DNA from: Planctomycetota bacterium
GTDB lineage: Bacteria; Planctomycetota; Phycisphaerae; Phycisphaerales; UBA5793
NCBI GenBank assembly: GCA_013112555.1
Contig: JABFGK010000002.1
Coordinates: 1,364,001 to 1,428,000 of the forward strand
DNA: 64,000 nucleotides
Direction of reading: 5' to 3'
Part shown: positions 26,471-42,862 of the stretch, piece after piece
How the letters are laid out: every line of letters begins with the position of its first letter
Numbering within the stretch: position 1 is the first letter of the stretch
Program-made: the position numbers and the translations under genes
Notes under the pieces: generated by a model
What the model saw: only the letters and a program-made list of their open reading frames with translations
The model's database searches: none
Told to the model about the DNA's origin: nothing

Positions 26471-27971
26471 TCGCCCCTGAATAATTCGATTTGATCGGTG
26501 AATCCAGGTTGAAAGTGGCTTCGGGATGTGGCATACTTTGCAGGATATTGTAGGGATACGTTCCGAAACCTTGCAAATTCGGAGTCACGGATGAAGCCCC
26601 AAGCCCAGCCTGATGATGAGCTGTTCCTGTTCCAATCTCATTTCGATCAACTGCTCAATCCGACCCATCCGCTGATCAAGTTATCGAAGCAGGTCGACTG
26701 GGATCACTTCGATCAATCGTTCGGCGAGTTCTTCTGTGAGTCGGTGGGTGCCCCGGCCAAGGCCACGCGTTTGATGGTCGGCCTGATCTACCTCAAACAC
26801 GCGTTCAACGAATCGGACGAGTCGGTCGTCGAGCGCTGGGTGGAGAACCCGTACTGGCAGTATTTCTGCGGATACACGCACTTGCAGCACGAGTGTCCGA
26901 TTCATCCCACGACGATGACCAAATGGCGAAATCGTGTGGGTGAAGCGAAACTTAATGAGTTGTTGAAACAGACCATCGAGGTGGCGGTGAAACACCATCG
27001 ATTGAGCGAACGTGAGTTGACCCATGTGAACGTGGACACGACGGTGCAGGAAAAGAACATCACGCACCCGACCGACTCGAAGCTGTTGTACCGGTCGATC
27101 TGAAGCTGGTTCGGGCCGCCAAGGGACGCGATATCGTGCTGCGCCAGTCGTATGTTCGAGTGGGCAAACGGGCTGCGGTAAAGGCCGGTCGATACGCGCA
27201 CGCGAAGCAGTTCAAGCGAATGCGTCGGTCGTTGCGTCAACTCCGGACGTACGTGGGGCGTTTGGTCCGTGACATCGAACGCAAAGCACCGCCATCGAGC
27301 CGAGATGAAGAGTTGTCGATGTTGCTGGGACGGTGTCAACGGTTGATCGATCAACGACCGAGCGACTCGAACAAGTTATATTCGCTGCACGAGCCGGAGG
27401 TGTGCTGCATCAGCAAGGGCAAGCGCACAGGCGCTATGAGTTTGGTCAGAAGGTGGCCTTGGCGACGACGAATCGAGGGAACTGGTTCGTGGCGGCCATG
27501 TTGTGCGAAGGGAACCCGTACGATGGTCATACGCTGAATGCGACCTTATGTCGTGTCGAATCAAACACTGGCGTTGCGCTGACTGATGCGTATGTTGACA
27601 AGGGATATCGGGGTCACGATTACGAAGGCGAGGCGGCGGTACACATTGCCGGCCGTGGAAGCAAGCGGGCGACGCGAGTTCAACGGAAGCGTCGCAAGCG
27701 ACGCAGTGCGATCGAACCGAAGATTGGGCACGCGAAATCGGAGAGTCGTCTGGGACGTTGCTACCTCAAGGGCCTGGCCGGGGATGCAATCAACGTGGTG
27801 CTGGCGGCGGCGGGAGCGAACTTCCGCAAGCTGCTTCGGCTCTTGCGATGCGCACGTGGCGTCGAACAGACGTTCCAGCTCAACTTCGCCTGGCTCTGGC
27901 ACCTATTGCGTTGGCCAAACCATCACCCGCGGTTCAAAATCGCCTGATCGGCGGTGTTTTTCAGGGTCGAC
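26470..27971 (+). mobile_element. IS5-type insertion sequence (about 1.5 kb) inside the rloB-like gene
   Basis: A complete element bounded by terminal inverted repeats. The left end reads GTCGCCCCTGAATAA from 26470; the right end, on the other strand from 27971, reads GTCGACCCTGAAAAA. Outside both ends is the 7-bp duplication TTGAATA. It carries one transposase gene in the direction of rloB, broken by two frameshifts. The transposase resembles IS5-family proteins of the IS1478 type. Near-perfect target repeats and good inverted repeats suggest a fairly recent insertion. Confidence 0.88.
26591..27947 (+). pseudogene. IS5-family DDE transposase (two frameshifts)
   Basis: The start ATG 26591 follows GGAG by about 6 bases. 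The first frame runs to 27103 and contains LMVGLIYLKHAFNESDE, VERWVENPYWQYFCG and the first catalytic Asp in HVNVDTTVQ. Homology then moves to a second frame (DLKLVRAAKGRD.., QSYVRVGKRAAVKAGRYAHA) near 27095, and to a third near 27420 (YEFGQKVALATTNRGNWFV, second Asp in DAYVDKGYRG, catalytic Glu in AIEPKIGHAKSE). Each shift is what a one-base deletion would give. All DDE residues are present, so the gene decayed recently, needs recoding, or contains sequence errors. Confidence 0.85.
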
Positions 27972-28409: not shown

Positions 28410-30347
28410 TCACGGCATGACCCGCGTTGCCACGACGTTGGTGGCCACGCCCTGCTGAACCCCCTGAAACCAGATGTCTGTGACTTGGCTGACCTTGATG
28501 AGATCGCGAGATCCCGTGACGGCGCCATTGGCATCACTCATGAGTGGGCCGAGCGCCAGTTTCGGGTTGCGCAGGTTCACATGGACGTCGAGCGCCTTGA
28601 TATAGGTGTCGCCGGAGCCTGCGATGCTGTACAGCAACCAGAATTGCTCGTTCGGAGTCACGTTCAGGCCGGTGAGTTCCAGTGGCTTCCACCCGAACAG
28701 CGGCATTGGCATGATGGTCAGTGCATTGGCGCTGTGGTCCTGTACCTCGTATGGGCCGATGTCGACAATCGGGGCTGTGCCGTATCCGATGTCGGGCTTG
28801 CCGTTATCATCAAAGAACCGTGGAGCACCGTCACAGTCGACGTCATAGCGCATCGCCGCATTTAGCCCAGCATCAATACACGGAGAGGCGGGCATCAGGT
28901 GATAGTCATCGTTGGCAGCATCGGCGAACATTGGGCTGGCTTCGAAATTGCCGCCTCCTCCATACCCGCCATAGACGTCACAGTAGGTCAGTTCAGCACC
29001 ATAAGAATAGTTATAGATTTCGTTTGGTACATTCTTCCAGAGAATCGAGTTCGTCACGGGCAGCCGGCGCCCATTGCCATTCTGATAGATAGCGCCTCCG
29101 GATGTGTCAGCGACATTGTGTACGAAAGCACAGTTCAGCACTGGTGCATCCGATGCGTAGCAGTAGAGCGCGCCACCCTCCAAGGCACAGTTGCGACCGA
29201 ACACTGAGTTGGTGATGTCAGCGCCAGTGAGTCGAGAGACCCACTCCAACATGATCGCTCCACCGGAAAACGCCCTGTTGTCAATAAACACACATTGTCG
29301 GATAGATGAGGTATTCTCGCGGAGGTAGGCGGCCCCGCCGCCGCTGGCAGAGTTGCCGTAGAAGACGCAGTGGGTCGTTTCAGCAACTGAGTCTCTGTAG
29401 TAGTAAACTGCCCCGCCAAGGTCGTCAGCACGATTGTAGGTAAATACACAGTTTGCTACAGACAGACTGGTTGGAATACCGTCGATTTGAATTGCGCCCC
29501 CGCTGACGCGAGCCAGATTATTACGAAATGTGCAATTCGTGATATCTACGGTGCCAATTGAGAGTTTGATTCCACCGCCGTACTCTGCAACGTTGCCGGC
29601 AATCAATGTGTCGTTGATGAACGCGTCCGACCGCCTGAAGTATGCCCCCCCGCCGCTATCATGGGATGATTTGTTGTCGGCGATCGTGCATGATTCGATG
29701 ATTGCGGTACTGGAGGTGCTCCAGAGCCCTGCGCCACTAACGTTGCTTTCATTGTATTGAATTGAACACTCGAACATATACAATGTGGAAGAGTCCGTGC
29801 AGTAAACGCCCGCACCGCCGCTGAAGTAGGTGCGATTGCGCTCAATTACGCAGTCTTCCAGTGTAAGAGTAGGAGCCTCGCTCGCGTAGATACCGCCCCC
29901 ATAGCCTGCTGTGTTTGCGGTAAGGCGGCAATGGCGCACCGTAGGCCCGCTGTCCCAACAGAAAAGACCACCGCCGTATCGATGCCGTGTTCCGCGGTCA
30001 AATCGGCCCTTGCCACGGGTGATGGTGAACCCCTCAAGGATGGTATCAGCCGTTTCGCCATTCATACACTTCACAGCCGATGTATCCTCGGCACGCGCAT
30101 CGATCGTGGTAACTTCCGCGCCGTCGGACGAATGGAGGTACACAGCCTTGCCGTAGAAGTTGATCGCTTCGTTATAGGTGCCGGGGCTGACGATGATCTC
30201 ATCACCGTCTATGGCAGCATCGATCGCCTGCTGGATCGTGGGATAGTCAGCCGGGACATGGATCACGGCGGCGATGGAGGAAGAAGCGCAGGACAAGCAG
30301 GTGGCGGCCAGGGCAATACACGTCACACAGAATCTATGGCGGGTCAT
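28410..30347 (-). CDS. Secreted right-handed beta-helix repeat protein
   Basis: The 645-residue protein starts at ATG 30347 with AGAGGAG upstream. After a signal peptide (cleaved near SSIAA) comes VIHVPADYPTIQQAIDAA.DGDEIIVSPGTY, the hallmark start of pectate-lyase-like helices. About 15 irregular repeats follow, each with GGG or SGGA then a Cys and Asn-rich strand (for example NCTFRNNLARVSGGAIQ), similar to polymorphic-membrane-protein and Planctomycetes CSLREA-type repeats. The last 105 residues form a separate domain (WLLYSIAGSGDTYI, LDVHVNL..PKL, IWFQG) found again at the end of the subtilase at 39072-40817. No catalytic site is evident; it may bind or cleave polysaccharide at the cell surface. 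Confidence 0.85.
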   Translation of the reverse strand: MTRHRFCVTCIALAATCLSCASSSIAAVIHVPADYPTIQQAIDAAIDGDEIIVSPGTYNEAINFYGKAVYLHSSDGAEVTTIDARAEDTSAVKCMNGETADTILEGFTITRGKGRFDRGTRHRYGGGLFCWDSGPTVRHCRLTANTAGYGGGIYASEAPTLTLEDCVIERNRTYFSGGAGVYCTDSSTLYMFECSIQYNESNVSGAGLWSTSSTAIIESCTIADNKSSHDSGGGAYFRRSDAFINDTLIAGNVAEYGGGIKLSIGTVDITNCTFRNNLARVSGGAIQIDGIPTSLSVANCVFTYNRADDLGGAVYYYRDSVAETTHCVFYGNSASGGGAAYLRENTSSIRQCVFIDNRAFSGGAIMLEWVSRLTGADITNSVFGRNCALEGGALYCYASDAPVLNCAFVHNVADTSGGAIYQNGNGRRLPVTNSILWKNVPNEIYNYSYGAELTYCDVYGGYGGGGNFEASPMFADAANDDYHLMPASPCIDAGLNAAMRYDVDCDGAPRFFDDNGKPDIGYGTAPIVDIGPYEVQDHSANALTIMPMPLFGWKPLELTGLNVTPNEQFWLLYSIAGSGDTYIKALDVHVNLRNPKLALGPLMSDANGAVTGSRDLIKVSQVTDIWFQGVQQGVATNVVATRVMP

Positions 30348-31216
30348 CAAAACTGCTCCTCTCGGGAGTTTTTGGTAGAGCAGAGCAGGCTACCCATGCA
30401 CCCTTGTTCCCCAGTTGCCGATTCGACGCTGATAACCCGCCTGCGTCGATTGGATAGAGGGCCATATCGAATAATGCCTGCTTCTGCCGGTTTATGCTTG
30501 TTGTTGGTATTGTATATCAATTCCAGCAGATATGTTGCTGAATTATGAGCAATTGTCAGATAGGGATTGACGGCTGATGGTGCGCTCGGGATGGGAGCGC
30601 GTGTCAGAATCGCATGGGGGGCTTGCCGGTCCTTATGCGAACAAGGCGCGCACGACAACGGGCGCGCCTCGGAGTTTCCCCCAAGCCCCGCGCCCGTTGT
30701 GTTACACTATCCACGCTTCCGCGCCCACGACGTACCTGCCGTCGGGTGAGCCAGCCGATCGCTCCACCGTTCCCGGCCGCCCTCCTTCCAGAGGCCCTAC
30801 CGGTCGGGAGCGAACAAGACTCCCCCTGTGCACCCGCACGTCGCCCGCTCAGCGTTCACCAGCCCAGCCCTGCCCCTACCAGGCAGCCTGCTGAACTGTG
30901 GTTGTCAATAGCCCCGATCGGGGGAGGCGTTCCGATGCGGGGCCACTCCAGGGACCACGTCCAACCACACACAGTCTCCAATACCTTCTGCCATACCGCA
31001 AGCCCGGCACTCAGATCACCACCGGATCGCAACCGTCTGCGCGGCCCCGGCAATCTGTGCCGTCTAGGCCGGCACGCAGCACCCCACCCAATGCCCGATA
31101 TTGTTGGACTTGCCGTACTTTGTCTGTGTCTGGGCGGGTAGTATCACACCGCTCCTACCGCATCAGAACGCCCGAAGCATCAATCCGGCCCCCACCGACA
31201 CAGGAGGGACATATCA
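30348..31216. other. Long intergenic region with direct repeat
   Basis: About 870 bases between divergent genes. It holds the upstream region of the beta-helix gene, copy 2 of the 48-bp direct repeat (30648-30695), and the leader of the esterase gene with AGGAGG at 31201-31206. Open frames in this stretch are Pro/Arg-rich readings with no homology I recognise. A possible -10 (TAGTAT at about 31139) lies upstream of the esterase gene. Confidence 0.5.
30648..30695. repeat. 48-bp direct repeat, copy 2
   Basis: Second copy of the repeat at 28280-28327, same orientation, identical over 48 bases. It lies 300 bases upstream of the beta-helix gene start. Confidence 0.85.
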
Positions 31217-34200
31217 ATGATTACCAATAGACGACGCCTGCCGCTGCAACTGGCCTGCTTCATGCCGGCTGCCCTGATATGTGCGGCTGTGACTGCCCCG
31301 TTATCGGCCGACGTCACGCTCCCATCAGTTCTCAGTGACGGCATGGTGCTCCAGCAACAACGGGATGCCGTCCCCATCTGGGGCCGGGCGTCCGCCGGCG
31401 AGCAAATCCAAATCACGGCCGACTGGCTGACCGAACCGGTGACAACCACGGCCGATGCGCGAGGCCGATGGTCTGCCGACATCTCGACACCGGATGCAGA
31501 CATGGGCTCGCATCAGGTCCGTATTGTCGGCAATAACACACTCGTCCTCTCTGACGTCCTGATCGGCGAGGTCTGGATCTGCTCCGGCCAATCGAACATG
31601 GAATGGCCGATGCGAGCCTGCGGCGAGGACGCAGAAATCGGGGTGGCCGACTACCCGCAGATCCGCCTGTTCAATGTCCAAAACACAGTCTCCGCGCACG
31701 AGCGGGATGATTGCACGGGGCAGTGGCTTGCCTGCAACTCCGAATCGCTTCCCGACTTCAGCGGCGTCGCCTACTTCTTCGGCAGTCGGTTGTTCAGCCG
31801 GCTCCGGGTTCCCATCGGCCTGATCCAGGCAGACTGGGGCGGAACCCGCGTCGAGGCCTGGATGAGCGAAGATGCACTGTCAGCGTATGAGCAATACAAG
31901 GACAGTCTCGATATTCTCCGTGACTCGCGCGACCCGCTGAAGCGAGGCAGCCTGGTTGAGAATCGTCGCGAGCAGTGGTGGACCAATATCGACCGGGTCG
32001 CCTCGATGCCCGGCAACTGGACGACCGTTGCCTATGACGATTCGGAATGGAAGTCGCATTCACTGCCAGGGTCATGGGCCGGCGACGGGTTGGATAACCA
32101 CGATGGTATCCTCTACTACCGCAAGACGATCAAGTTGAGTTCCTCATTAGCCGGCCGCCGGGCGACGCTGACACTGGGACCGATCGACGACTATGACGAT
32201 GCGTGGGTCAACGGCAAGCATGTCGCAGCAACGCATGAGGCGGGCAAGTGGTCCGTGCCGCGCGAGTATGACATCATGGAAGACATCCTGGTTGAGGGCG
32301 ACAACGTGATCTGCGTTCGCGTGCTCGACACTGGTGGGCTGGGCGGGTTTGGGGGTGAGGCCGGGCAGATGCAACTGAAGTTCAAGGCACGGCAGGGAGA
32401 ATCACAGCCCCCAGCGTCCTTGTCCCTGGCCGGTGCCTGGAAGTGGCACCTCGGGCCGACGATGAGCCAACTGCCTGCCATGCCCGAGTCCACCGGCATG
32501 GGGCCGAACACGGTCACCGCTTTGTTCAACGGCATGATCTCGCCGATCGAACCCTACGGCATTCGCGGGGCCATCTGGTACCAGGGCGAATCGAATCGTG
32601 GCAACGCAGCCGAGTATCACGACCTGTTTTCAGCCATGATTCGAAACTGGCGTGATCGCTGGGGCCAGGGTGACTTCCCGTTCTACTTCGTCCAGATTGC
32701 CCCCTTCATGTACGGCGGCGATCGTGGCCAAACGGCACTGCTGCGCGAGAGCCAGCGATTGACGATGAGCACTGTCGATAACACCGGCATGGTTGTCACC
32801 ACTGACATCGGCAACCCAGCCGACATCCACCCGCGCAACAAGCGCGAGGTCGGGCGTCGACTGTCATTGTGGGCACTGTCACAGACCTATGGAATTGACG
32901 AGGTCGTCCCCTCCGGGCCGTTGTACAAGAGCATGACCTTTGAGGAACATCGAGCCCGCATCACATTTGATTACGCCGCCGACCGCCTCGTGAGGAAGGG
33001 CAATGATCACGGGCTGACGCACTTCCTGATTGCCGGGGCAGACAAGCAGTTCCGCAGTGCCCGTGCCGTTGTCGATCCAGCGAACCCCGATTCGATCCTT
33101 GTTTGGAATGATCGGATTACCGAACCGGTTGCGGTGCGCTTTGCCTGGACGGCATCACCGTTGCCGAACTTCTTCAACTCCGTGGGGCTGCCTGCCTCCC
33201 CATTCCGAACCGACGACTGGAATGAACCGCTGCCGCGCATCCTCAATGATGAACAGATGAGTACCCTCCGTGATGATGATCCAGCCTTTGGGCCACTCTT
33301 CAACGGGACCGACCTTGACGGCTGGCACAATGTGAACTGTGCCCCGAGTACCTGGTCCGTCCGCGCCGACGAAAACGGTGACCCGCTGATCGCCTGTACC
33401 GGGATCCCCACCGGCCTCCTTCGTACCGATCGACAGTACGAGAACTTCGTTCTCGAACTCGAGTGGCGGCATCTGCAGCCGGGCGGGAATGCCGGCTTGT
33501 TTGTCTGGAGCGATGCGCTGACTGCCAAAGGTCAGCCGTTCTCACGCAGCGTCGAAGTACAGGTCATGGATGGGGCCGAAGGTGCCTGGTTTACGAGCGA
33601 CGGTGACATCTTCCCCATTCACGGCGCGACGATGACGCCCATTACTCGTCGAGGCAGAGGGAGTTCCCGTGCGTTCCCAAGTCAGCATCGTGCCAACCCA
33701 TCACCGATGTGGAATCACTACCGCGTGATCTGCAACAACGGCAATATCTCACTGGCCGTCAACGGCCTGGTCGTAACAAAGGGCAAGGAAGCGAGCCCGC
33801 GTAAAGGCTACATCTGTCTCGAGGCAGAGGGTTCGCCGGTCGAGTTTCGCAATATCCGAATCAAGGAAATGCCGCCGGCTGATCCCCCGTTGGCGGCAAA
33901 CCAGGTGGCCGCGCCTGACATGGGATTCGTTCCCATGTACACCGGCGTCGACTTCAGCGGCTGGAAGTACGGCCCGGAGCATGAAGGCCACTGGCGCGCA
34001 ACGAACTGGACCGTCACGTTCGACGGCCAGGGGGCCGACCTGTGGACCGAGAAGGAGTACACAGACTTCGTTATGATCTGCGATTGGCGCTGGACCGGCG
34101 AGCCGAAGGACAATGCCCTGCCGGTCATTCTGCCGTCCGGGGAAAACAAGATGGATGAGAACGGGCAGCAGGTGACACAGGTCGTTCCCGAAGCGGGCGA

Positions 34201-34534
34201 CAGCGGAATCTATCTGCGCGGCAACAGCAAGAGTCAGGTCAATATCTGGTGCTGGCCCATCGGGTCCGGCGAGGTATACGGCTACCGAACCGACGGCAGC
34301 ATGTCCGCTGAAGTCAAAGCCGGCGTCACCCCATCCGAGCCGGCCGATGCACCGATCGGGCAATGGAACCGGTTCATTATCAAGATGGTCGGCGATCGCC
34401 TGACGGTCGTACTCAACGGCAAGACGGTTCTTGAGAACGCGCAGTTGCCCGGTGTGCCGGAAAGCGGCCCGATCGCTTTGCAGCACCACGGCGGGGCACT
34501 GCAGTTTGCCAATCTGTATATCAAGGAACTGTGA
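31217..34534 (+). CDS. Sialate O-acetylesterase fused to two DUF1080 (3-keto-disaccharide hydrolase-like) domains
   Basis: The 1,105-residue secreted protein starts at ATG 31217 after AGGAGG. It has a signal peptide (about residues 1-31), then an SGNH esterase of the sialate O-acetylesterase family: nucleophile Ser in SGQSNMEWPM (124-129), GAIWYQGESN in the middle, and the Asp-His pair in DIHPRNKREVG. A jelly-roll insert (about 230-400) contains GILYYRKTIKL. From about residue 690 come two copies of the DUF1080/laminin-like fold: FGPLFNGTDLDGWHN...GGNAGLFVWS and FVPMYTGVDFSGWKYG...GDSGIYLRG. The likely role is removal of acetyl groups from, and cleavage of, complex glycans outside the cell. 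The fusion saves co-export of separate enzymes; the substrate is unknown. Confidence 0.9.
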   Translation: MITNRRRLPLQLACFMPAALICAAVTAPLSADVTLPSVLSDGMVLQQQRDAVPIWGRASAGEQIQITADWLTEPVTTTADARGRWSADISTPDADMGSHQVRIVGNNTLVLSDVLIGEVWICSGQSNMEWPMRACGEDAEIGVADYPQIRLFNVQNTVSAHERDDCTGQWLACNSESLPDFSGVAYFFGSRLFSRLRVPIGLIQADWGGTRVEAWMSEDALSAYEQYKDSLDILRDSRDPLKRGSLVENRREQWWTNIDRVASMPGNWTTVAYDDSEWKSHSLPGSWAGDGLDNHDGILYYRKTIKLSSSLAGRRATLTLGPIDDYDDAWVNGKHVAATHEAGKWSVPREYDIMEDILVEGDNVICVRVLDTGGLGGFGGEAGQMQLKFKARQGESQPPASLSLAGAWKWHLGPTMSQLPAMPESTGMGPNTVTALFNGMISPIEPYGIRGAIWYQGESNRGNAAEYHDLFSAMIRNWRDRWGQGDFPFYFVQIAPFMYGGDRGQTALLRESQRLTMSTVDNTGMVVTTDIGNPADIHPRNKREVGRRLSLWALSQTYGIDEVVPSGPLYKSMTFEEHRARITFDYAADRLVRKGNDHGLTHFLIAGADKQFRSARAVVDPANPDSILVWNDRITEPVAVRFAWTASPLPNFFNSVGLPASPFRTDDWNEPLPRILNDEQMSTLRDDDPAFGPLFNGTDLDGWHNVNCAPSTWSVRADENGDPLIACTGIPTGLLRTDRQYENFVLELEWRHLQPGGNAGLFVWSDALTAKGQPFSRSVEVQVMDGAEGAWFTSDGDIFPIHGATMTPITRRGRGSSRAFPSQHRANPSPMWNHYRVICNNGNISLAVNGLVVTKGKEASPRKGYICLEAEGSPVEFRNIRIKEMPPADPPLAANQVAAPDMGFVPMYTGVDFSGWKYGPEHEGHWRATNWTVTFDGQGADLWTEKEYTDFVMICDWRWTGEPKDNALPVILPSGENKMDENGQQVTQVVPEAGDSGIYLRGNSKSQVNIWCWPIGSGEVYGYRTDGSMSAEVKAGVTPSEPADAPIGQWNRFIIKMVGDRLTVVLNGKTVLENAQLPGVPESGPIALQHHGGALQFANLYIKEL

Positions 34535-34610
34535 GCAGGGGGTACAGCCAATGGGAACTCACTTCGACCGCGTTCCCTTATGCTCGGTCACATGACAGAT
34601 GACCTCACGC

Positions 34611-34734
34611 GTCATTCCCGCGCAGGCGGGAATCCAGTGAGACGTGATTCGTGTGGCTGACTGGCACAGGCACACCGGACAGATTGAGCGATCTGCCAGA
34701 ATCCCCCTGGATGCCGGCCTTCGCCGGCATGACG
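34611..34734. repeat. Pair of REP-like palindromes (BIME-like)
   Basis: Two inverted palindromes about 70 bases apart: GTCATTCCCGCGCAGGCGGG at 34611 and GGATGCCGGCCTTCGCCGGC ending near 34728, facing each other. The spacer ends CAGAATCCCCCTGGATGCC, which recurs exactly near 63974. No gene lies in 34535-34777. Confidence 0.75.
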
Positions 34735-34777
34735 AAAACACTGGGCACGCGACAGCGCTTCCCTCCCTCGCGAGCAC

Positions 34778-35233
34778 TCACTGCACTTCGTCAGTTCCCT
34801 GCTCGATCTGAGACGGCATGTCGATATTCAGGCCGGTGTACCGCTGCACATACACGGTGACAGTGCAAGACAGGGTGGCATCGAGATTGCGAACGGTCAC
34901 GAGTGTGCCGTCGGTCACGGTGCGCCCGACCGATCCCTGGATCAGTCTGCGTGTAATGGCCGGTTCATCACGCTGCTCGAAGACCACCTGCACCTCGGCC
35001 GGCCCCTGGTTCCGGACCTGGACAAACGGGGCGCTGCCGTTGACGAATACCGATCCCTCCATGCCGGGCCGAAGGACGAACCCGCTCGATGCCTGACCGC
35101 CGGTGCAGGCCTGCAATCCGGCCACTGCCACCAGCATGGCCAGATACATCGTCAGCCGGCGTTTCTTCTGCCCCGAAGTCGTCACGGGAGGACGTCGTGA
35201 TGCGGGAAGTCCTGGTTTGTGTCGAGATGTCAT
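34778..35233 (-). CDS. Putative lipoprotein, unknown function
   Basis: About 151 residues from ATG 35233, which has AGGAG 12 bases upstream. A basic N-terminal stretch (GQKKRRL) precedes a hydrophobic segment (MYLAMLVAVAGLQAC) ending in a lipobox-like LQAC, so the mature protein may be a lipid-anchored envelope protein of about 105 residues. The mature part is beta-rich (PFVQVRNQGPAEVQVVFEQ, TVRNLDATLSCTVTVYVQRY). An internal ATG at 35149 would give a shorter signal. No family recognised. Confidence 0.55.
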   Translation of the reverse strand: MTSRHKPGLPASRRPPVTTSGQKKRRLTMYLAMLVAVAGLQACTGGQASSGFVLRPGMEGSVFVNGSAPFVQVRNQGPAEVQVVFEQRDEPAITRRLIQGSVGRTVTDGTLVTVRNLDATLSCTVTVYVQRYTGLNIDMPSQIEQGTDEVQ

Positions 35234-35427
35234 GGGATCGGTCTCCTGTGCTGATTTCGTCAATTTGCACCATCCTGGGACCGATTAAAGCCTGCTGTGA
35301 CCAAACCGGCAGCGTGCCGCAGCAGGAAACTCAATTTCGGCTATGTGCATCATTTTATCTACAGCCCTATACTTCTCAGGCACAATGAGGCACTCGCAGG
35401 GGCTCAAACGCAGAGGGGCGGACCATC

Positions 35428-36120
35428 ATGGGACCATCAAATGCCACGGGAGCGGGACCGAATGGGGGCGGTGGGGGATCGGTACGACAGCAGTTCGTGT
35501 CGCTGACAGGCGTGCCTGGTGCTGTCGGTGAGAAGACCGGCGAAGAAAACCTGGCGACTGCCTGCCTGCGCCGCGAGCACCTGCTCATCGCTCAGGTTCT
35601 GGACTGCTTTGAGCACGTCCTGAGACAGGCCCGAGGGAAGCGTCGGGTGGTCAAGGAGGAGTTTGCCCCCTTCATCGAGTTCTTTGCTGAGTACCTCGAC
35701 GGGTGTCACCGCGAAAAAGAGGAACAGTGCCTGTTTCGATGCCTGGTCGATTCATTCGGTTATTCTGAGGAGAACGGCCCGATTCAGAAACTCGTGTACG
35801 AGCACGAGGCCGGGCGACGCCGGGTCTCCATCATGGCTACCCACCTGGACGATGCAGCTGCCGGCCAACGACACGCCGTGCGCCTCTTTCTCGAACAGGC
35901 GCGGGCCTTTCGTGACATTCTGCGCGGCCACGTCAGTGCGGAGAACCAGGGCCTGTTTGAGGCGGTCGATCAACAGATCCACCCCGGCCATCCCGAATTC
36001 GAGCGGCTGCAACGATCCTACGAGCAAACGGACCAGGAGCCGGACAATCAGACCTCACTGTCGCGCGGGCAGGCGCTGGGCAGGCAAATCCTGGAACAGT
36101 TTGCATCCAATGTGAAGTGA
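35428..36120 (+). CDS. Hemerythrin/HHE cation-binding domain protein
   Basis: The 230-residue protein has a Gly-rich N-terminal tail and then a four-helix HHE domain with the expected metal ligands: RREHLLIAQVL, GCHREKEEQCLF, YEHEAGRRRV and LRGHVSAENQGLF. Such proteins bind a di-iron site and sense or bind oxygen or NO, or store iron. ATG 35428 follows GAGGGGCGG. TATACT at 35368-35373 is a possible -10. A polar tail follows the domain. No partner gene is obvious. Confidence 0.85.
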   Translation: MGPSNATGAGPNGGGGGSVRQQFVSLTGVPGAVGEKTGEENLATACLRREHLLIAQVLDCFEHVLRQARGKRRVVKEEFAPFIEFFAEYLDGCHREKEEQCLFRCLVDSFGYSEENGPIQKLVYEHEAGRRRVSIMATHLDDAAAGQRHAVRLFLEQARAFRDILRGHVSAENQGLFEAVDQQIHPGHPEFERLQRSYEQTDQEPDNQTSLSRGQALGRQILEQFASNVK

Positions 36121-36161
36121 ACGCTGCGTGATGCCGCCTGATTCATCAGTAACAACAGAAA

Positions 36162-36201
36162 AAGCGTCACCACCGGCTGTGCGCTGCCGATCGTGACGCT
36201 T
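36162..36201. terminator. Hairpin terminator between convergent genes
   Basis: Arms AAGCGTCAC (36162-36170) and GTGACGCTT (36193-36201), nine perfect pairs. On the minus strand it is followed by TTTTTCTG, so it best serves the thioredoxin-like gene; it also lies 40 bases after the hemerythrin stop. Confidence 0.65.
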
Positions 36202-36257
36202 CGTTATCAATCGGGATTCTTAGCGATCAATACGCATCGCAGTGGCGAGCGCCGTAT

Positions 36258-37142
36258 CTAGTTTCCGCCGCCGCCGCCCCCTCCACGACGCCCACCTCCC
36301 TGACCGAACCCGCGCCCTTGTCCCTGTCCATCGCGGCCGGTTTGGTACTTCACGCCGCAGCCGTAGGGTCGCGTGGTGGTCACACTGACCTTCTTGTCGG
36401 CCTTCAGTTCCTCAATCGCCTGCTCGACGTAGTTCACAAGTTCCTTGTCACGATTGCTGACGCGTCCAAGCGGGGCATTGTCGATGGCACCCATGTATCG
36501 GAGTACGCCCTTCGTATCGATGACGTACATATGCGGGGTTGTCCGGGCCTTGTACAGCCGCCCGACGTCGCCGGATTCGTCAAGCAGAATGGGGTACTCA
36601 ATGCCGTAGGTCTTGCGGTAGTCGATGTTGCGGTCGAGCCCGGAGCCTTGCTGGCCGGGACCGCCCGAGTTGATCGCCAACCAGACCACGTCCTTCTTCT
36701 TGTCTTTGGTGTACTCATTGCCGGCCGTGTCGAGCGGGCCGTCTTCATGCTGCTTCTTCACATACGGGCATTGCGGGTTGTACCACTCGAGGACGACGTA
36801 CTTGCCCTTGTATTCGCTGAGCGTGTGCTCTTTGCCGTCAATATCCGTAAGCGTGAAGTCGGGGGCCGGCTTGTCGATCGTCGCAAACTTGACGGCGTCC
36901 TTGTCGTTCCCGTCCTCATCCGTCTCGGCCTTATCCGTGGCCTTGTCCTTGTCCTTGCCATTGTCCTCCTGGTCCTTCTGCTTGGCTTTGTCCTTTTCCT
37001 TTTTCTCCTGCGCATACGCGCTGGAGCCGGTCGCGACCGTGGTCGTAAAGACCGCTGCCGCGATCGCGATGACGCCTGCCAGGGCCATCAGCCTCGATGC
37101 AGCGTCATTCGTTTTGTGTCCGTGTCCATGTCGATGAGCCAT
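36258..37142 (-). CDS. Exported thioredoxin/peroxiredoxin-fold protein
   Basis: From ATG 37142 (AGGAGAT upstream), 294 residues. A His-rich N-terminus and signal peptide (about residues 19-45, cleaved near AYAQ) lead to a very charged linker of Lys/Asp/Glu repeats (about 47-83), then a TlpA/AhpC-type thioredoxin fold: APDFTLTDIDGKEHTLSEYKGK, EWYNPQCPYVKKQ with one active-site Cys, and TTPHMYVIDTKGVLRYMGA. A CxxC pair is absent, which points to a peroxiredoxin-like or structural role. A GCGVKY motif lies near the end, followed by a Gly/Arg-rich tail of about 25 residues. Probably periplasmic. Confidence 0.8.
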   Translation of the reverse strand: MAHRHGHGHKTNDAASRLMALAGVIAIAAAVFTTTVATGSSAYAQEKKEKDKAKQKDQEDNGKDKDKATDKAETDEDGNDKDAVKFATIDKPAPDFTLTDIDGKEHTLSEYKGKYVVLEWYNPQCPYVKKQHEDGPLDTAGNEYTKDKKKDVVWLAINSGGPGQQGSGLDRNIDYRKTYGIEYPILLDESGDVGRLYKARTTPHMYVIDTKGVLRYMGAIDNAPLGRVSNRDKELVNYVEQAIEELKADKKVSVTTTRPYGCGVKYQTGRDGQGQGRGFGQGGGRRGGGGGGGN

Positions 37143-37389
37143 CCCGGTATCTCCTGTCTGATGTCGCACCCGACCTCATATCGGCCTGCTGGGTCTTTCT
37201 TACTCGATTAATGACACACTTCGGGTCTCGATCATACCATCCATCGTCAAAAGCGGTTCTCCCAAATTCTCGGTCACTCGGTGGTCCTACGCAGTTGTCC
37301 TGTGAAAAGTTCGTTCGCGGCCCCTCTATGGCTATTGCGGATGTTCCGGTCGCCAGGGAGTCCGATCCACGGGCGGATGGAGATCAGGT

Positions 37390-37938
37390 ATGTGTATCAA
37401 CGATGCGTCATCAGGAAACAGGCACCTTCTTGTGGTTTCTGACAGGAAGCCTCCATCGAGTTGTGCCCGGGTATGGAATCTCGTTATGCTCGCGGCATTG
37501 ACAGCCTCCCTGCTCATCGGGGCCGGCTGCGGGAGCGAGGTGAAGGTGACTGACGATGATCTGGTCATCATCAACGCCACCGATCTGGATGCGATCATCC
37601 TGGCCAATACGAAAACCACGAAGCGCAAGAAGCAGACCTGTCTCATTGACAGTCGGATTGCGCAGCGGTTTGCAGCCGGCCATATTGCCGGGGCCGTCAA
37701 CTTGATTTCACGCGATGTTCGGGCTGAAGATCCTCGGTTCTCCGAGTACAAGACGTTGGTCATCTACGGGCAGGACTGGATGGACTCCTCGCCGATGATC
37801 GTGAGCAAACGACTGCTCGCCCTGCGATACGAGGATGTCAGAACCTATCGAGGCGGCGTCGTGGACTGGCAGGCGACCGGGCACGTGCTCATTCCGTCAC
37901 CCACCCCGTCAGACGAAACCGGGCAGGCCGGCCCCTGA
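37390..37938 (+). CDS. Rhodanese-like domain lipoprotein, active-site Cys absent
   Basis: Up to 182 residues. The hydrophobic stretch MLAALTASLLIGAGC (ATG 37486) ends in a lipobox, so the shorter start or an intermediate GTG may be right; ATG 37390 is the longest. The rhodanese fold is visible: TCLIDSRIAQRFAAGHIAGAVNL and LRYEDVRTYRGGVVDWQATGH. In the active-site loop, where a catalytic Cys is expected after the beta-strand, the sequence is VIYGQDWMDSS, with no Cys. Probably a non-catalytic, membrane-anchored member. It overlaps the next gene at TGATG. Confidence 0.7.
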   Translation: MCINDASSGNRHLLVVSDRKPPSSCARVWNLVMLAALTASLLIGAGCGSEVKVTDDDLVIINATDLDAIILANTKTTKRKKQTCLIDSRIAQRFAAGHIAGAVNLISRDVRAEDPRFSEYKTLVIYGQDWMDSSPMIVSKRLLALRYEDVRTYRGGVVDWQATGHVLIPSPTPSDETGQAGP

Positions 37939-38930
37939 TGCCCTGCATCCGGGCGTATCGAACCTTGTTTCTGATGTTTCTCGTACTCGACGCAGCCGTC
38001 CTGCCGTTGGCTGTCCTCACGGGATCGCCGCAGGATGGGTCTTCATCACAGGTTCGGCCGAAGGCAGCGCTCAGGATGGCCCTGGCTCGGCTGCGGACCG
38101 AGGCCGAGACGTTTCGTGAGACGGCACGACTCACGCGGGATCAGGCCGACTTCGCAGCAGACTACGAGTATGCAGACCGCGTCGATCGGTCGGCCCTGTG
38201 TGCCGAAGTGATTCAGCCTCAATCCGGGACCGAGCGCGAGTCGGACCCGTCCGTCGACGGCTACATCCGCTGGCAACTGCTGTCGTTCACCCCCGATTGG
38301 TCGGCCCTGACGGATAATCAGTTCCGCAAATTTGTCGAGCACATGCCGGGCCTCGTGCCCCACCCGGCCGGACATCCGGACGTACACGACGAACTGGAGC
38401 AACTCGCAGCAGTCTCAGCCCGGGATCCCGATGCTCGTCAGCAACTCCAGCAGCGCTGGGAGTCGATCAAGACACGGATTCACGATGCGGAACTGTTGAA
38501 TCACCCGTCGATCCGCTTCCGGCAGAGCGTGATTGAGCAGTATGTGAAACCGGATCGGCCGGGGTATCCCGACCCGCCATCGGGCGATGCGCAAGCCGGT
38601 CGCTACCGGGCGATCGTGCTCATGCTGCACGATCTTGAAGACCGGATAGAGGCCGGGTGGGACACTCGCTGGATCAAGACGCAGATCACGAACACACTCA
38701 AAGCCTGCAAACTCGATCCCGAGTTGAGCCGCGAACGTCGACTGGAACTGATTCGCATGGTGGAGCAGTTGGCAGACCGGCCGGCGACGAAGTCAGTCAG
38801 GTGTGTTACGTTCTACGCCGAGCAATCGGATCGCGAGCCGGACATCGGCTACAGCACATTCCAGGTCCGACGCACGACGGACGCAGCCAAGTGGATTGCC
38901 TACCTCAACGGGCACGACCCCACGAAGTGA
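37938..38930 (+). CDS. Conserved-looking protein of unknown function, probably exported
   Basis: The 330 residues have one N-terminal hydrophobic segment (about 8-30) that could be a signal or anchor. The rest is mostly charged helix with no motif I recognise; segments such as RIHDAELLNHPSIRFRQSV and YRAIVLMLHDLEDRIEAGWD look structured. Start ATG 37938 overlaps the stop of the rhodanese-like gene (TGATG), so the two are probably made together. Confidence 0.65.
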   Translation: MPCIRAYRTLFLMFLVLDAAVLPLAVLTGSPQDGSSSQVRPKAALRMALARLRTEAETFRETARLTRDQADFAADYEYADRVDRSALCAEVIQPQSGTERESDPSVDGYIRWQLLSFTPDWSALTDNQFRKFVEHMPGLVPHPAGHPDVHDELEQLAAVSARDPDARQQLQQRWESIKTRIHDAELLNHPSIRFRQSVIEQYVKPDRPGYPDPPSGDAQAGRYRAIVLMLHDLEDRIEAGWDTRWIKTQITNTLKACKLDPELSRERRLELIRMVEQLADRPATKSVRCVTFYAEQSDREPDIGYSTFQVRRTTDAAKWIAYLNGHDPTK

Positions 38931-39071
38931 TGGCCGCCACAGTCTCTCAGCCGGTCGTCTACCGGGATTTTTTGGCAGCCCTCGCGGTTTTTGTGTTTCG
39001 CCCATGTCATCAGGTTGTACACTTGGTGGACGCTCCAACTCAGACCGGGATTTACCTCAGGAGGGATATTG

Positions 39072-40817
39072 ATGAGACTCCGTACTTTTACATATGTCGC
39101 TGCATTATCGGCGCTGACGCTGGCCGGCATTGCCGGTGCTGCTGACGGCCGGGATGGGTTCCTCGAACCACGACAGGAGTTCATCAAGGTCGAGCGCGTG
39201 GTTCAACCGGACTACCCGCATCGGCTTACGGTGAAGTTTCGTGATGCCGTCCTGGCTCGGGCAACCGACCTCGGCGCGGTGACCAGTGTGTCGGCTGCTG
39301 ACCTGACGCACATTCAGATGCTTGCTGCACGGCACGGCATCACGTTCCGTCAGTTGATCAACCTGCCGGATGAGACGCTGATTTACCTGGAGCAACGGGC
39401 CGAGGCACACAGCGGAATCGCCCAGCCTGACTTGGCAGGCATGATGATCGTGGATGGGCCGGCCGACGTCGACCTGCAGCAGGTGGCCGACGATCTGCAC
39501 GCCTCTGCCCTGACCGAATGGGTGTACTTCCAGGAACTGCTGCCGCCTCCTCCTTGCGATGACATTACACCGGACACCCCGCTGTACTACCCGGCACAGC
39601 AGGGGTATCACGGCCCGAACCCGGGATTGAATATGACCGCTGCCTGGGGCATGGGCAGTACGCGCGGGGCCGGGATCCGGGTGGCCGACTGCGAGTATGA
39701 CTATAACGAGAATCATGAGGACCTGTGCAATATCACCGATGAACCCGGCCAGACGCCGGGTGGCCTGTGGGAGGATCACGGGACCGCGGTGCAGGGAGAA
39801 CTCGTCAGCCTCGATAACGGCTACGGCTGCACCGGCCTGGTTCCCGATGCCGAGTCATGGTTCTTCTCCGAGTACACGGTTGAGGAAGGCTCACGACGCG
39901 TCACAGCCATCACGAATGCCATCGCCACGATGGGGATCGGTGATGTTGTATTGTTGGAAATGCAGACATTCGGTGGGGGCGGGGGCTATGTGCCGGCCGA
40001 ATTCGACCCCGCCGTCTGGACCGTGTGCAGGAACGGGACCGATGCCGGCGTCATCGTCGTCGCAGCAGCCGGCAACGGGGATCAGAATCTCGACGCCGCA
40101 GCGTACAACGAGTACATGAGTCGCGGCGACAGCGGGGCCATCATCGTCGGGGCAGGCACGTCGAACACGAACCACGACAAACTGAGTTTCAGCACCTACG
40201 GCAGCCGAGTAAACGTACAGGGGTGGGGGGGGCAGGTGTTCACGCTGGCTTATGGCGACTATGCCCGGCACGGCAATGATTACAATCAGGAATACACCGC
40301 AGCATTCAGCGGTACGAGTTCGGCATCGCCGTTTGTTACCTCATGTTGCATTGCCCTGCAGAGTCTGGCCGTTGAACAACTCGGTCGCCGGCTCGACCCG
40401 TACGAACTGCGCGACATCCTGATTACCACCGGCATCCCACAAGGCTCCGGCGGGCACATCGGGCCGTTCCCAGACATGGAAGCCGCAGCCTCGACCATCC
40501 TGGCAGACCGCATGACGCTCGTGGTCGGTGATCTGGTTGGTGGGCGTGACGGGGACTTCGATGTGTCGGGCGCGACGCCGAATACAAGCCACTATCTGGT
40601 CTACAGCCTCCGGGGAACCGGCAGCACCTATGTTGCGCAACTCGATGTGACGCTCGGTCTGGCAAGCCCGAAACTGGGTGCTGATGGGACGTCCGACGGG
40701 ACGGGCAATGTGCACTGGACGCTCGGCGTACCCAACGCTGCCAGCGGTCGAACCATCTGGTTCCAGAGCGCCGAATATGGCCGCACGAGCAATGTGGTGG
40801 AGACGGCCGTGAAGTAA
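39072..40817 (+). CDS. Secreted subtilisin-like serine protease (S8) with C-terminal accessory domain
   Basis: ATG 39072 follows AGGAGG by 9 bases. The 581 residues comprise a signal peptide (cleaved near AGAAD), a propeptide-like region to about residue 180, and an S8 catalytic domain: Asp in GIRVADCEYDYN, His in WEDHGTAVQGELVS, oxyanion Asn in VAAAGNGDQN, and Ser in FSGTSSASPFVTS. The triad is complete, so it should be active. The last 100 residues (YLVYSLRGTGSTYVAQLDV, PKLGADGTSDGTGNV, IWFQSAEYGRTSNVVET) match the end of the beta-helix protein at 28410-30347. A TACACT near 39018 may be the -10. Confidence 0.9.
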   Translation: MRLRTFTYVAALSALTLAGIAGAADGRDGFLEPRQEFIKVERVVQPDYPHRLTVKFRDAVLARATDLGAVTSVSAADLTHIQMLAARHGITFRQLINLPDETLIYLEQRAEAHSGIAQPDLAGMMIVDGPADVDLQQVADDLHASALTEWVYFQELLPPPPCDDITPDTPLYYPAQQGYHGPNPGLNMTAAWGMGSTRGAGIRVADCEYDYNENHEDLCNITDEPGQTPGGLWEDHGTAVQGELVSLDNGYGCTGLVPDAESWFFSEYTVEEGSRRVTAITNAIATMGIGDVVLLEMQTFGGGGGYVPAEFDPAVWTVCRNGTDAGVIVVAAAGNGDQNLDAAAYNEYMSRGDSGAIIVGAGTSNTNHDKLSFSTYGSRVNVQGWGGQVFTLAYGDYARHGNDYNQEYTAAFSGTSSASPFVTSCCIALQSLAVEQLGRRLDPYELRDILITTGIPQGSGGHIGPFPDMEAAASTILADRMTLVVGDLVGGRDGDFDVSGATPNTSHYLVYSLRGTGSTYVAQLDVTLGLASPKLGADGTSDGTGNVHWTLGVPNAASGRTIWFQSAEYGRTSNVVETAVK

Positions 40818-42322: not shown

Positions 42323-42862
42323 ATGTTCGCATCCGTGTTTGAAACGCCGGCAGCACGTACCGAGATGCTGACCGGATTGCTGCCGGGCCCACCTGCCCGG
42401 ACGACGCAGGCTCACGGAGTTCCGCATCGTGGCCTGCTCACGGGCTCGGCAATGCCGGGGCCAATCGGGTCCATCGATGCCTCCCGGGAGTCGGTGCTCG
42501 ATAGCATGCGCACTGCCGGTCGCTTCGAGTTGCTCGAGCCGGTGTCCGACCGAAAGGACGACGACGACGACGAGGAGGCGGAGGAAGACGAGCCGTTCGG
42601 CGACGACGAAGAGGAAGGCGACGATGTTGAGGTCGAGATCGACTACGACGACGATCTGGATGCCGATTATGACGACGATGCCGATGATGACGATGACGCC
42701 GACGAGGTTGGGGATGACGATGATGACGATGACGACTTCTGGGATGACGATGACGAAGATGATGATGATGACGATGAGGACGATGACTTCGAGGATGAAC
42801 TCGAAGACGATGAAGACGTGTTTGACGATGACTACTTCACCGACAACGAGGAAGACTATTGA
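42323..42862 (+). CDS. Asp/Glu-rich highly acidic protein
   Basis: 179 residues from ATG 42323. The first 75 residues are ordinary and carry no motif I know; from about residue 77 to the end the protein is almost entirely Asp and Glu with Tyr, Phe and Trp spaced through it (for example FWDDDDEDDDDDD). The net charge is extremely negative. Such tails occur in proteins that bind cations or basic partners such as ribosomal proteins or DNA-binding proteins. The opposite strand reads as an equally long Val/Ile-rich frame, but that is a by-product of GAC/GAT codons. Confidence 0.65.
   Translation: MFASVFETPAARTEMLTGLLPGPPARTTQAHGVPHRGLLTGSAMPGPIGSIDASRESVLDSMRTAGRFELLEPVSDRKDDDDDEEAEEDEPFGDDEEEGDDVEVEIDYDDDLDADYDDDADDDDDADEVGDDDDDDDDFWDDDDEDDDDDDEDDDFEDELEDDEDVFDDDYFTDNEEDY

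Follow-up and report, generated by a model that had tools for sequence, protein, structure and literature searches.

The stretch of DNA analysed here in full, hereafter the window, comprises 64,000 nucleotides of a planctomycete genome of 4.55 Mb in two contigs (GCA_013112555.1; window G000:C2:1364001-1428000), and it carries two genes for secreted-type proteins that share a C-terminal domain, here called the tail. The first, an open reading frame (ORF) of 646 residues on the reverse strand (28410..30350), encodes a right-handed beta-helix protein (PF13229, E 5.7e-22, 78.5 bits against a cut-off of 25.9 in the Pfam search). Its last 103 residues form a tail of type A (28413..28721, reverse strand), delimited by alignment and by single-sequence and profile searches; profile A1 matched it at E 5.9e-30, this copy being itself part of the profile's alignment. 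Directly before the tail lies a choice-of-anchor Q domain (NF041518; 28740..28907, reverse strand), which in the NCBIfam scan of the protein scored E 3.4e-5 and 24.0 bits, below the cut-off of 25, and which in the genome profile search, over the identical stretch (G000:C2:1392740-1392907), scored E 1.5e-5 and 27.4 bits, above it. The second gene, on the forward strand in the ORF list (38991..40817, 608 residues), encodes a subtilase that more likely begins at the ATG of position 39072, which stands before a signal-peptide-like stretch (MRLRTFTYVAALSALTLAGIAGA). Its peptidase S8 domain (PF00082; 39702..40430, forward strand, G000:C2:1403702-1404430) was matched at E 1.8e-17, with 64 bits against a cut-off of 21.8, and its translation contains the stretches VADCEYD, EDHGTAV and SGTSSASP, which we take to be the catalytic Asp, His and Ser motifs of the family. 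The last 101 residues of the subtilase (40512..40814, forward strand) are again a tail of type A by alignment and profile, and this copy was used for the fold prediction.

Both ORFs lie where the preliminary description of this DNA had placed them, and its claim that the two proteins match at their C-termini and nowhere else was borne out. The tails are homologous over their full length of about 101-103 residues at 34% identity; the last 108 residues of each protein gave a local BLOSUM62 score of 144, against a mean of 26.8, a standard deviation of 4.9 and a maximum of 54 in 2000 shuffles, and the motifs YSxxGxGxTYxxxLDV, PKL, IWFQ and SNVV/TNVV listed there are indeed present in the tails. 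The remaining parts of the proteins scored 45, against a mean of 43.4 and a standard deviation of 6.0 in 200 shuffles, thus no better than shuffled sequence, and nothing else is alike between them. The preliminary description had named the failure of a search to connect the two regions as what would speak against it; the subtilase tail, used as lone query in a whole-genome search, retrieved the tail of the beta-helix protein (G000:C2:1392419-1392700) at E 1.0e-11.

The fold was predicted by AlphaFold from the subtilase tail and alignment A5, composed of 38 sequences (two from the window and 36 from named relatives). The model has a mean pLDDT of 97.6, a pTM of 0.87 and nine strands, and it ends with a beta strand followed by two residues. 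With confidence, the predicted structure can be called an immunoglobulin (Ig)-like beta-sandwich of two sheets. Among the structural matches listed, the closest were neocarzinostatin (Z 9.6, 2.8 A over 90 residues), the Nir2 C-terminal domain (Z 9.6, 2.3 A over 86) and KIR2DS2 (Z 8.7, 2.3 A over 80). Foldseek gave no match for the model at E<=0.001 and Z values of 7-8 are common among unrelated models, so the Ig-likeness holds at the level of the fold only.

The tail is by no means limited to the window. The subtilase copy alone found 89 places in the source genome at E<=1e-3, the type A profile (52 tails) at least 149 (best 150 of 236 candidates) and the profile of a second, cysteine-bearing type B (20 tails) at least 150 (best 150 of 269 candidates), with a union of at least 185 places. 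An hhalign comparison shows the two types to be homologous (probability 99.6, E 8.7e-25); Gly65, Pro74, Gln85, Asp62 and Ser93-Asn94 are kept in both. Type B is marked by cysteines at position 44 (99% of 74 copies) and position 90 (100%), in the numbering of the window tail; they lie in two loops and likely form a disulfide between them. After three fragments were dropped (C2:1178669, C2:876462 and C1:1971056), 182 distinct ORFs were left, and in 178 of these the tail ends at most 21 residues from the stop; none of the 178 has a second separate copy. Of the four others, one shows a frame change within the tail and three have it internally, and therefore the supposition that the domain always sits at the C-terminus holds for the great majority of the ORFs and fails for those three proteins. 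Broken tails were seen at two loci (C2:1178790 with 1178669, and C2:876462), one frame-split and the other a fragment with an in-frame stop codon. A hydrophobic N-terminal stretch was found by a crude rule in 175 of the 182 tailed ORFs, a number that is biased upward and supportive at most since the same rule also picks the best-scoring start codon. Moreover, tailed genes cluster along the genome: 45 neighbouring pairs lie less than 3 kb apart, compared with a mean of 23.7, a standard deviation of 4.2 and a maximum of 39 in 2000 randomisations.

The proteins that carry the tail are diverse. Among the 25 of 59 Pfam families listed for the 182 ORFs are DUF3466 (33 ORFs), S8 (14), beta-helix (8), M14 (4), M28 (4) and M12-type peptidases (2), together with FG-GAP repeats, BNR, CHRD, PQQ and others, and NCBIfam added HAF repeats (38) and the choice-of-anchor domains Q (7), J (3) and B (1). 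Going by family names, they would be mostly export-type, extracellular proteins. The choice-of-anchor Q domain, which is a neighbour of the tail and distinct from it, stands directly upstream of a tail in seven of the nine NF041518 matches of this genome, the beta-helix protein of the window included. When the tails were removed from the 178 ORFs with a terminal copy and the remaining parts were clustered (BLAST single linkage at E<1e-5, which may miss remote homology between carriers), 71 clusters resulted, 52 of them with a single member. In 108 of the 178, the most similar tail belongs to a carrier from a different cluster, with identities of up to 83% in such pairs, which indicates that the domain has moved between carriers, barring remote homology that BLAST does not see. 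The notion of a mobile domain is thereby upheld; the word "accessory" is an understatement for a tail found on well over a hundred ORFs. As to the HAF repeats, they are expanded in the source genome and its relatives, with 73-109 repeat matches per genome in G000-G004 and 19 in G005 as against 0-9 in order-mates, and the HAF proteins read in G000 and relatives bear type B tails.

No Pfam or NCBIfam model covers this domain. Neither window tail was matched by these libraries when both window proteins were searched at E<=1. Searches of Pfam and NCBIfam at E<=0.1 with the type A tails (52) and the type B tails (20) gave no convincing match, and sequence searches of the Protein Data Bank (PDB) gave none either; the weak matches, to one or two tail members each, were such as MG4 (0.027), Ig_7 (0.033) and cittilin (0.0038), and PDB matches of type B tails stood at E 0.34-1.5. 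The tail is thus a C-terminal domain without a model in the Pfam and NCBIfam libraries. Among the papers listed in searches of the open-licence literature, none mentions it in the title or the opening of the abstract, which does not prove that it has never been described. The profiles of known sorting tags were silent as well: TIGR02595 (PEP-CTERM) and NF041540 (GC-type dockerin) matched neither the window proteins nor the tails, although NF041540 does match protein ends in sister families, and the profiles of the C-terminal domains (CTDs) of the type IX secretion system (T9SS), TIGR04183/PF18962 and TIGR04131/PF13585, matched neither the window proteins at E<=1 nor the 72 tails at E<=0.1. T9SS CTD structures were absent among the structural matches listed, which excludes nothing.

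The distribution of the tail was followed in the family of the source genome (f1), in other families of the same order (f2-f6) and in a family of another class (f62); match counts per genome are lower bounds, taken from the best 150 candidates (136 for the GC-type dockerin and 16 in the phylum sample). All six f1 genomes searched are rich in tails, with at least 108, 99, 77, 71, 82 and 50 matches at E<=1e-10, and none of 25 order-mates from the five other families has one at that threshold. In the phylum sample, at least 33 of 294 genomes had a match at E<=1e-3 (241 of those without a match are not itemised), and 14 order-mates in this sample had none among their best 16 candidates. Six f62 genomes gave at least 16 matches each, which does not imply a tail in every genome of that family, and the other matching genomes gave 1-15; the tail was C-terminal in all six f62 loci read (L200-L205). 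A strict DNA pattern run against the genome collection returned 31 stretches, all with a tail by profile, from four metagenome-assembled genomes: Phycisphaerales bacterium UBA5793, which is placed in Phycisphaerales, Planctomycetota KLAP200, and the isolates PLA1 (titled Vicinamibacteraceae) and PLA5 (titled planctomycete).

The abundance of the tail is complementary to that of the GC-type dockerin and, more roughly, to that of PEP-CTERM. The dockerin counts are 0, 0, 0, 0, 2 and 0 in f1, 52 to at least 136 in f2 (three genomes at 136 or more), 0-71 in f3 and 0-4 in f4-f6. PEP-CTERM matches at E<=1 number 6-22 in f1, 18-39 in f2, 5-48 in f3, 34 in f4 and 37 to at least 150 in 10 of the 12 f5 and f6 genomes. 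Two genomes depart from this, G017 (f5, 2 matches) and G030 (f6, 12); both lack the tail as well as the GC-type dockerin and are poor in PEP-CTERM, and they may rely on some further tag.

The comparison becomes more direct when similar cargo is followed from family to family. Subtilase loci were selected on the S8 score, irrespective of how the proteins end, and 29 of 30 were read (L292 was left out for an internal stop). All six f1 subtilases end in the tail; in the sister families the ends are GC-type dockerins in four of six (f2), dockerin-like in three of five (f3) and one of one (f4), and PEP-CTERM in three of four (f5) and two of seven (f6). When ten ends (nine of subtilases and one of a HAF protein) were tested by profile, eight lay above the cut-off of NF041540 or TIGR02595, namely all five PEP-CTERM ends and three of the five dockerins, the other two (L293 and L278) matching NF041540 below it. 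Ends called by eye alone were those of L227, L283, L286 and L294 (dockerin) and L303 (PEP-CTERM). The choice-of-anchor Q loci, all 30 of which were read, behave alike: the tail comes next in 7 of 11 f1 loci (four clear, three weak, E 1e-7 to 1e-6), and a GC-type dockerin ends six of the seven f2 proteins, of which five scored above the profile's cut-off and the sixth was called by eye. NF041540 matched six of seven choice-of-anchor ends, five of them above its cut-off. Outside f1 and f2, the four f3 ends are dockerin-like by eye (L219, with 28.2 bits against 29; L221, without profile match; L212; L232), L229 is PEP-CTERM-like by eye, L211, L226 and L237 fit no tag, and the ORFs of L216, L220, L230 and L233 run off their stretch. 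For the HAF proteins (18 of 30 loci read), the tail was present in all 12 f1 loci. Six of the HAF loci read lie outside f1: L253 (f5) ends in PEP-CTERM by profile, L255 is PEP-CTERM-like and L257 dockerin-like by eye, L258 fits no clear tag, and L254 and L256 run off the stretch.

Taken with the complementary abundances, this comparative evidence agrees with the earlier guess of "sorting or retention", as the tail holds, on subtilases and choice-of-anchor Q proteins, the slot that is held by GC-type dockerins or PEP-CTERM in many proteins of sister families. We consider it probable that the tail folds into a C-terminal domain which serves localisation in the manner of a sorting tag, for export, surface retention or both; judging from the sequences, it most likely fills the slot of the known tags. 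Choice-of-anchor Q, going by its name, precedes various anchors, of which the tail would be one more. A carrier would leave the cytoplasm by a Sec-type signal peptide, as the hydrophobic N-termini suggest, and its tail would fold independently in the periplasm into the nine-strand Ig-like sandwich predicted with high confidence, probably locked in type B by one inter-loop disulfide, to which the two near-invariant cysteines point. A single envelope component, shared by the carriers and encoded elsewhere in the genome, would then recognise the folded tail and would move the carrier over the outer membrane, hold it at the surface, or both.

The known systems offer parallels at several points. 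Similarly to the PEP-CTERM/exosortase system (TIGR02595, PF09721), the tail is a C-terminal tag common to unrelated proteins, but it is a folded domain of about 100 residues, whereas PEP-CTERM, according to the GlyGly-CTERM paper, joins a short motif to a transmembrane helix and a basic terminus (PMC3237569). The same paper describes comparable exchanges of tails among homologous proteins, S8/S53 proteases included (PMC3237569). The GC-type dockerin (NF041540) occurs in the same order, is C-terminal, follows choice-of-anchor Q and sits on subtilases, just as the tail does; yet it is unrelated in sequence, with two EF-hand-like D-x-D-G repeats and a final Gly-Cys (by eye) in place of the Ig-like sandwich, and the abundances of the two are nearly mutually exclusive among genomes.

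Several observations weigh against a dedicated localisation tag. Sister-family subtilases without a recognised tag amount to two of six in f2, two of five in f3, one of four in f5 and five of seven in f6, and within the source family the tail is missing from the end of 4 of 11 choice-of-anchor Q proteins. In the source genome, 3 of the 17 subtilase matches listed are not tailed (C1:710727, C1:1279587 and C1:2536612). PEP-CTERM matches at E<=1 were also obtained in 7 of 14 control genomes, two above the cut-off, so that noise accounts for part of the low counts; PEP-CTERM matches occur beside dockerins in f2 and f3, hence the tags are not strictly exclusive; and exosortase was found in all 31 genomes, f1 included. 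Three proteins continue behind an internal tail, L044 (C1:1732032) by 120 residues, L138 (C2:349982) by 215 and L108 (C1:1725548) by 334, from which it follows that a free C-terminus is not strictly required, and two ORFs of relatives end in two tandem tails (L175:6542-7153, reverse strand; L179:2323-2934, forward strand). A conserved binding end was looked for in type A and rejected, the loops (1.5-2.0 bits) being about as conserved as the strands (1.8 bits). Finally, a receptor, translocon or processing enzyme for the tail was not found, and one recurrent cluster of neighbouring ORFs, described below, has no family identification. Some details of these proteins may be added: L044 and L138 resemble each other in their N-terminal parts, and the L175 ORF has upstream of its tails a serine stretch, presumably a subtilase-like motif.

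The search for a partner gene adjoining the carriers considered 663 ORFs near them, which less 188 tailed ones left 475 for clustering into recurring neighbours, and no family among these recurred at more than 8 places. A partner encoded beside the carriers was accordingly rejected, a result that fits one shared component encoded elsewhere. The largest clusters were 8 ABC-ATPase ORFs at 8 places and the cluster without identification, 8 ORFs at 6 places (for example L103, C1:1189744-1191250); smaller ones, of 3-6 ORFs, comprised kinase, sigma-factor, response-regulator, insertion-element and a few unclear families.

How such a domain would act may be explained in more than one way, and the first two explanations are mechanisms within the localisation role, with overlapping odds. 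One possibility is a passive role in retention or substrate binding, in which the tail, in the manner of Ig-like domains that bind carbohydrate or the cell wall, would remain part of the mature protein and adhere to a polymer or protein of the surface, export taking another route; we regard this main rival, with binding to a surface polymer, as quite possible though somewhat doubtful. The structural neighbours listed for the Ig-like fold include adhesive and sugar-binding proteins, and the probable disulfide of type B, the internal copies in some carriers and the tandem copies in relatives would all suit a binding module. Such a module does not require the near-strict terminal, single-copy placement seen in 178 of 182 ORFs, and the presence of PEP-CTERM and GC-type dockerin in the same place suggests a sorting slot, although the GC-type dockerin may itself bind. 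Moreover, no conserved exposed patch was identified on the tail by sequence conservation alone, without coordinates; in type B, higher conservation is confined to the two loops that hold the cysteines (2.9 and 2.6 bits, compared with 1.7).

Alternatively, the tail may be the export signal of a type IX-like secretion, recognised folded in the periplasm, passed through an outer-membrane channel and perhaps cleaved and replaced by an anchor, which we hold to be rather unlikely as a specific mechanism. By analogy, the T9SS would still be the nearest working model. The CTD of T9SS effectors has a beta-sandwich fold. It is likewise a C-terminal domain, of up to about 100 residues, on a large and varied set of unrelated Sec-exported proteins, very many per genome; a T9SS review puts the potential CTD effectors of one genome at 230 and describes a CTD as both necessary and sufficient (PMC10202324). 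Scattered carriers without any neighbour gene at more than 8 places would also fit. On the other hand, no T9SS CTD model appears among the matches of the type A and type B tails, and CTD proteins are limited to Bacteroidota according to the same review (PMC10202324), a phylum outside which the tail occurs. SprA (TIGR04189) was found in none of the 31 genomes and equally in none of the 14 control genomes, so that its absence shows little.

It is improbable, in our estimation, that the tail has no role in localisation and is just an Ig-like structural cap, common on extracellular proteins and disseminated by domain shuffling. Ig-like folds are common, three copies are internal, and low-copy tails occur in scattered planctomycete families (the at least 33 genomes of the phylum sample), as such a cap would have it; neither the lineage-wide expansion with complementary scarcity of the GC-type dockerin nor the other tags on comparable cargo of sister families would be expected from it. 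That the tail serves secreted proteases as an intramolecular chaperone or C-terminal propeptide, as the tailed subtilases (14) and the M14 (4), M28 (4) and M12-type (2) peptidases might suggest, is most improbable and was rejected for the carrier range, peptidases making up about 24 of the 182 carriers in the families listed and the rest being HAF/DUF3466, FG-GAP, beta-helix, BNR, CHRD and PQQ proteins.

Other features of the window deserve mention. Adjoining the beta-helix gene are transposase-like gene pieces, recognised by eye in two frames (26528-27103 and 27333-27947), and the same transposase-like protein start recurs at three places near tailed genes (L098). Between the two tailed genes, an ORF of 1105 residues (31217-34534, forward strand) has a signal-like N-terminus by eye and no tail, hence not every exported protein here is tailed. 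Further on, an ORF of 179 residues (42323-42862, forward strand) contains very long Asp and Glu runs.

In a single genome the tail marks well over a hundred ORFs, most of which have export-type N-termini, so that a few profiles suffice to list many of the surface and secreted proteins of these bacteria together. The differing C-terminal tags on comparable cargo indicate that several tags serve one slot within a single order. The pattern of presence and absence, with f1 and f62 rich in tails and f2-f6 without them, can be used to seek the machinery by phylogenetic profiling, an approach which the GlyGly-CTERM paper reports for exosortase and rhombosortase (PMC3237569). Tentatively, and with considerable doubt, we propose that f1 and f62 may run an as yet unrecognised outer-membrane secretion and surface-sorting system, equivalent to type IX secretion but in a phylum other than Bacteroidota and with a translocon of its own. 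The tail would be its signal, and it would have taken over cargo that relatives sort by PEP-CTERM/exosortase or GC-type dockerins.

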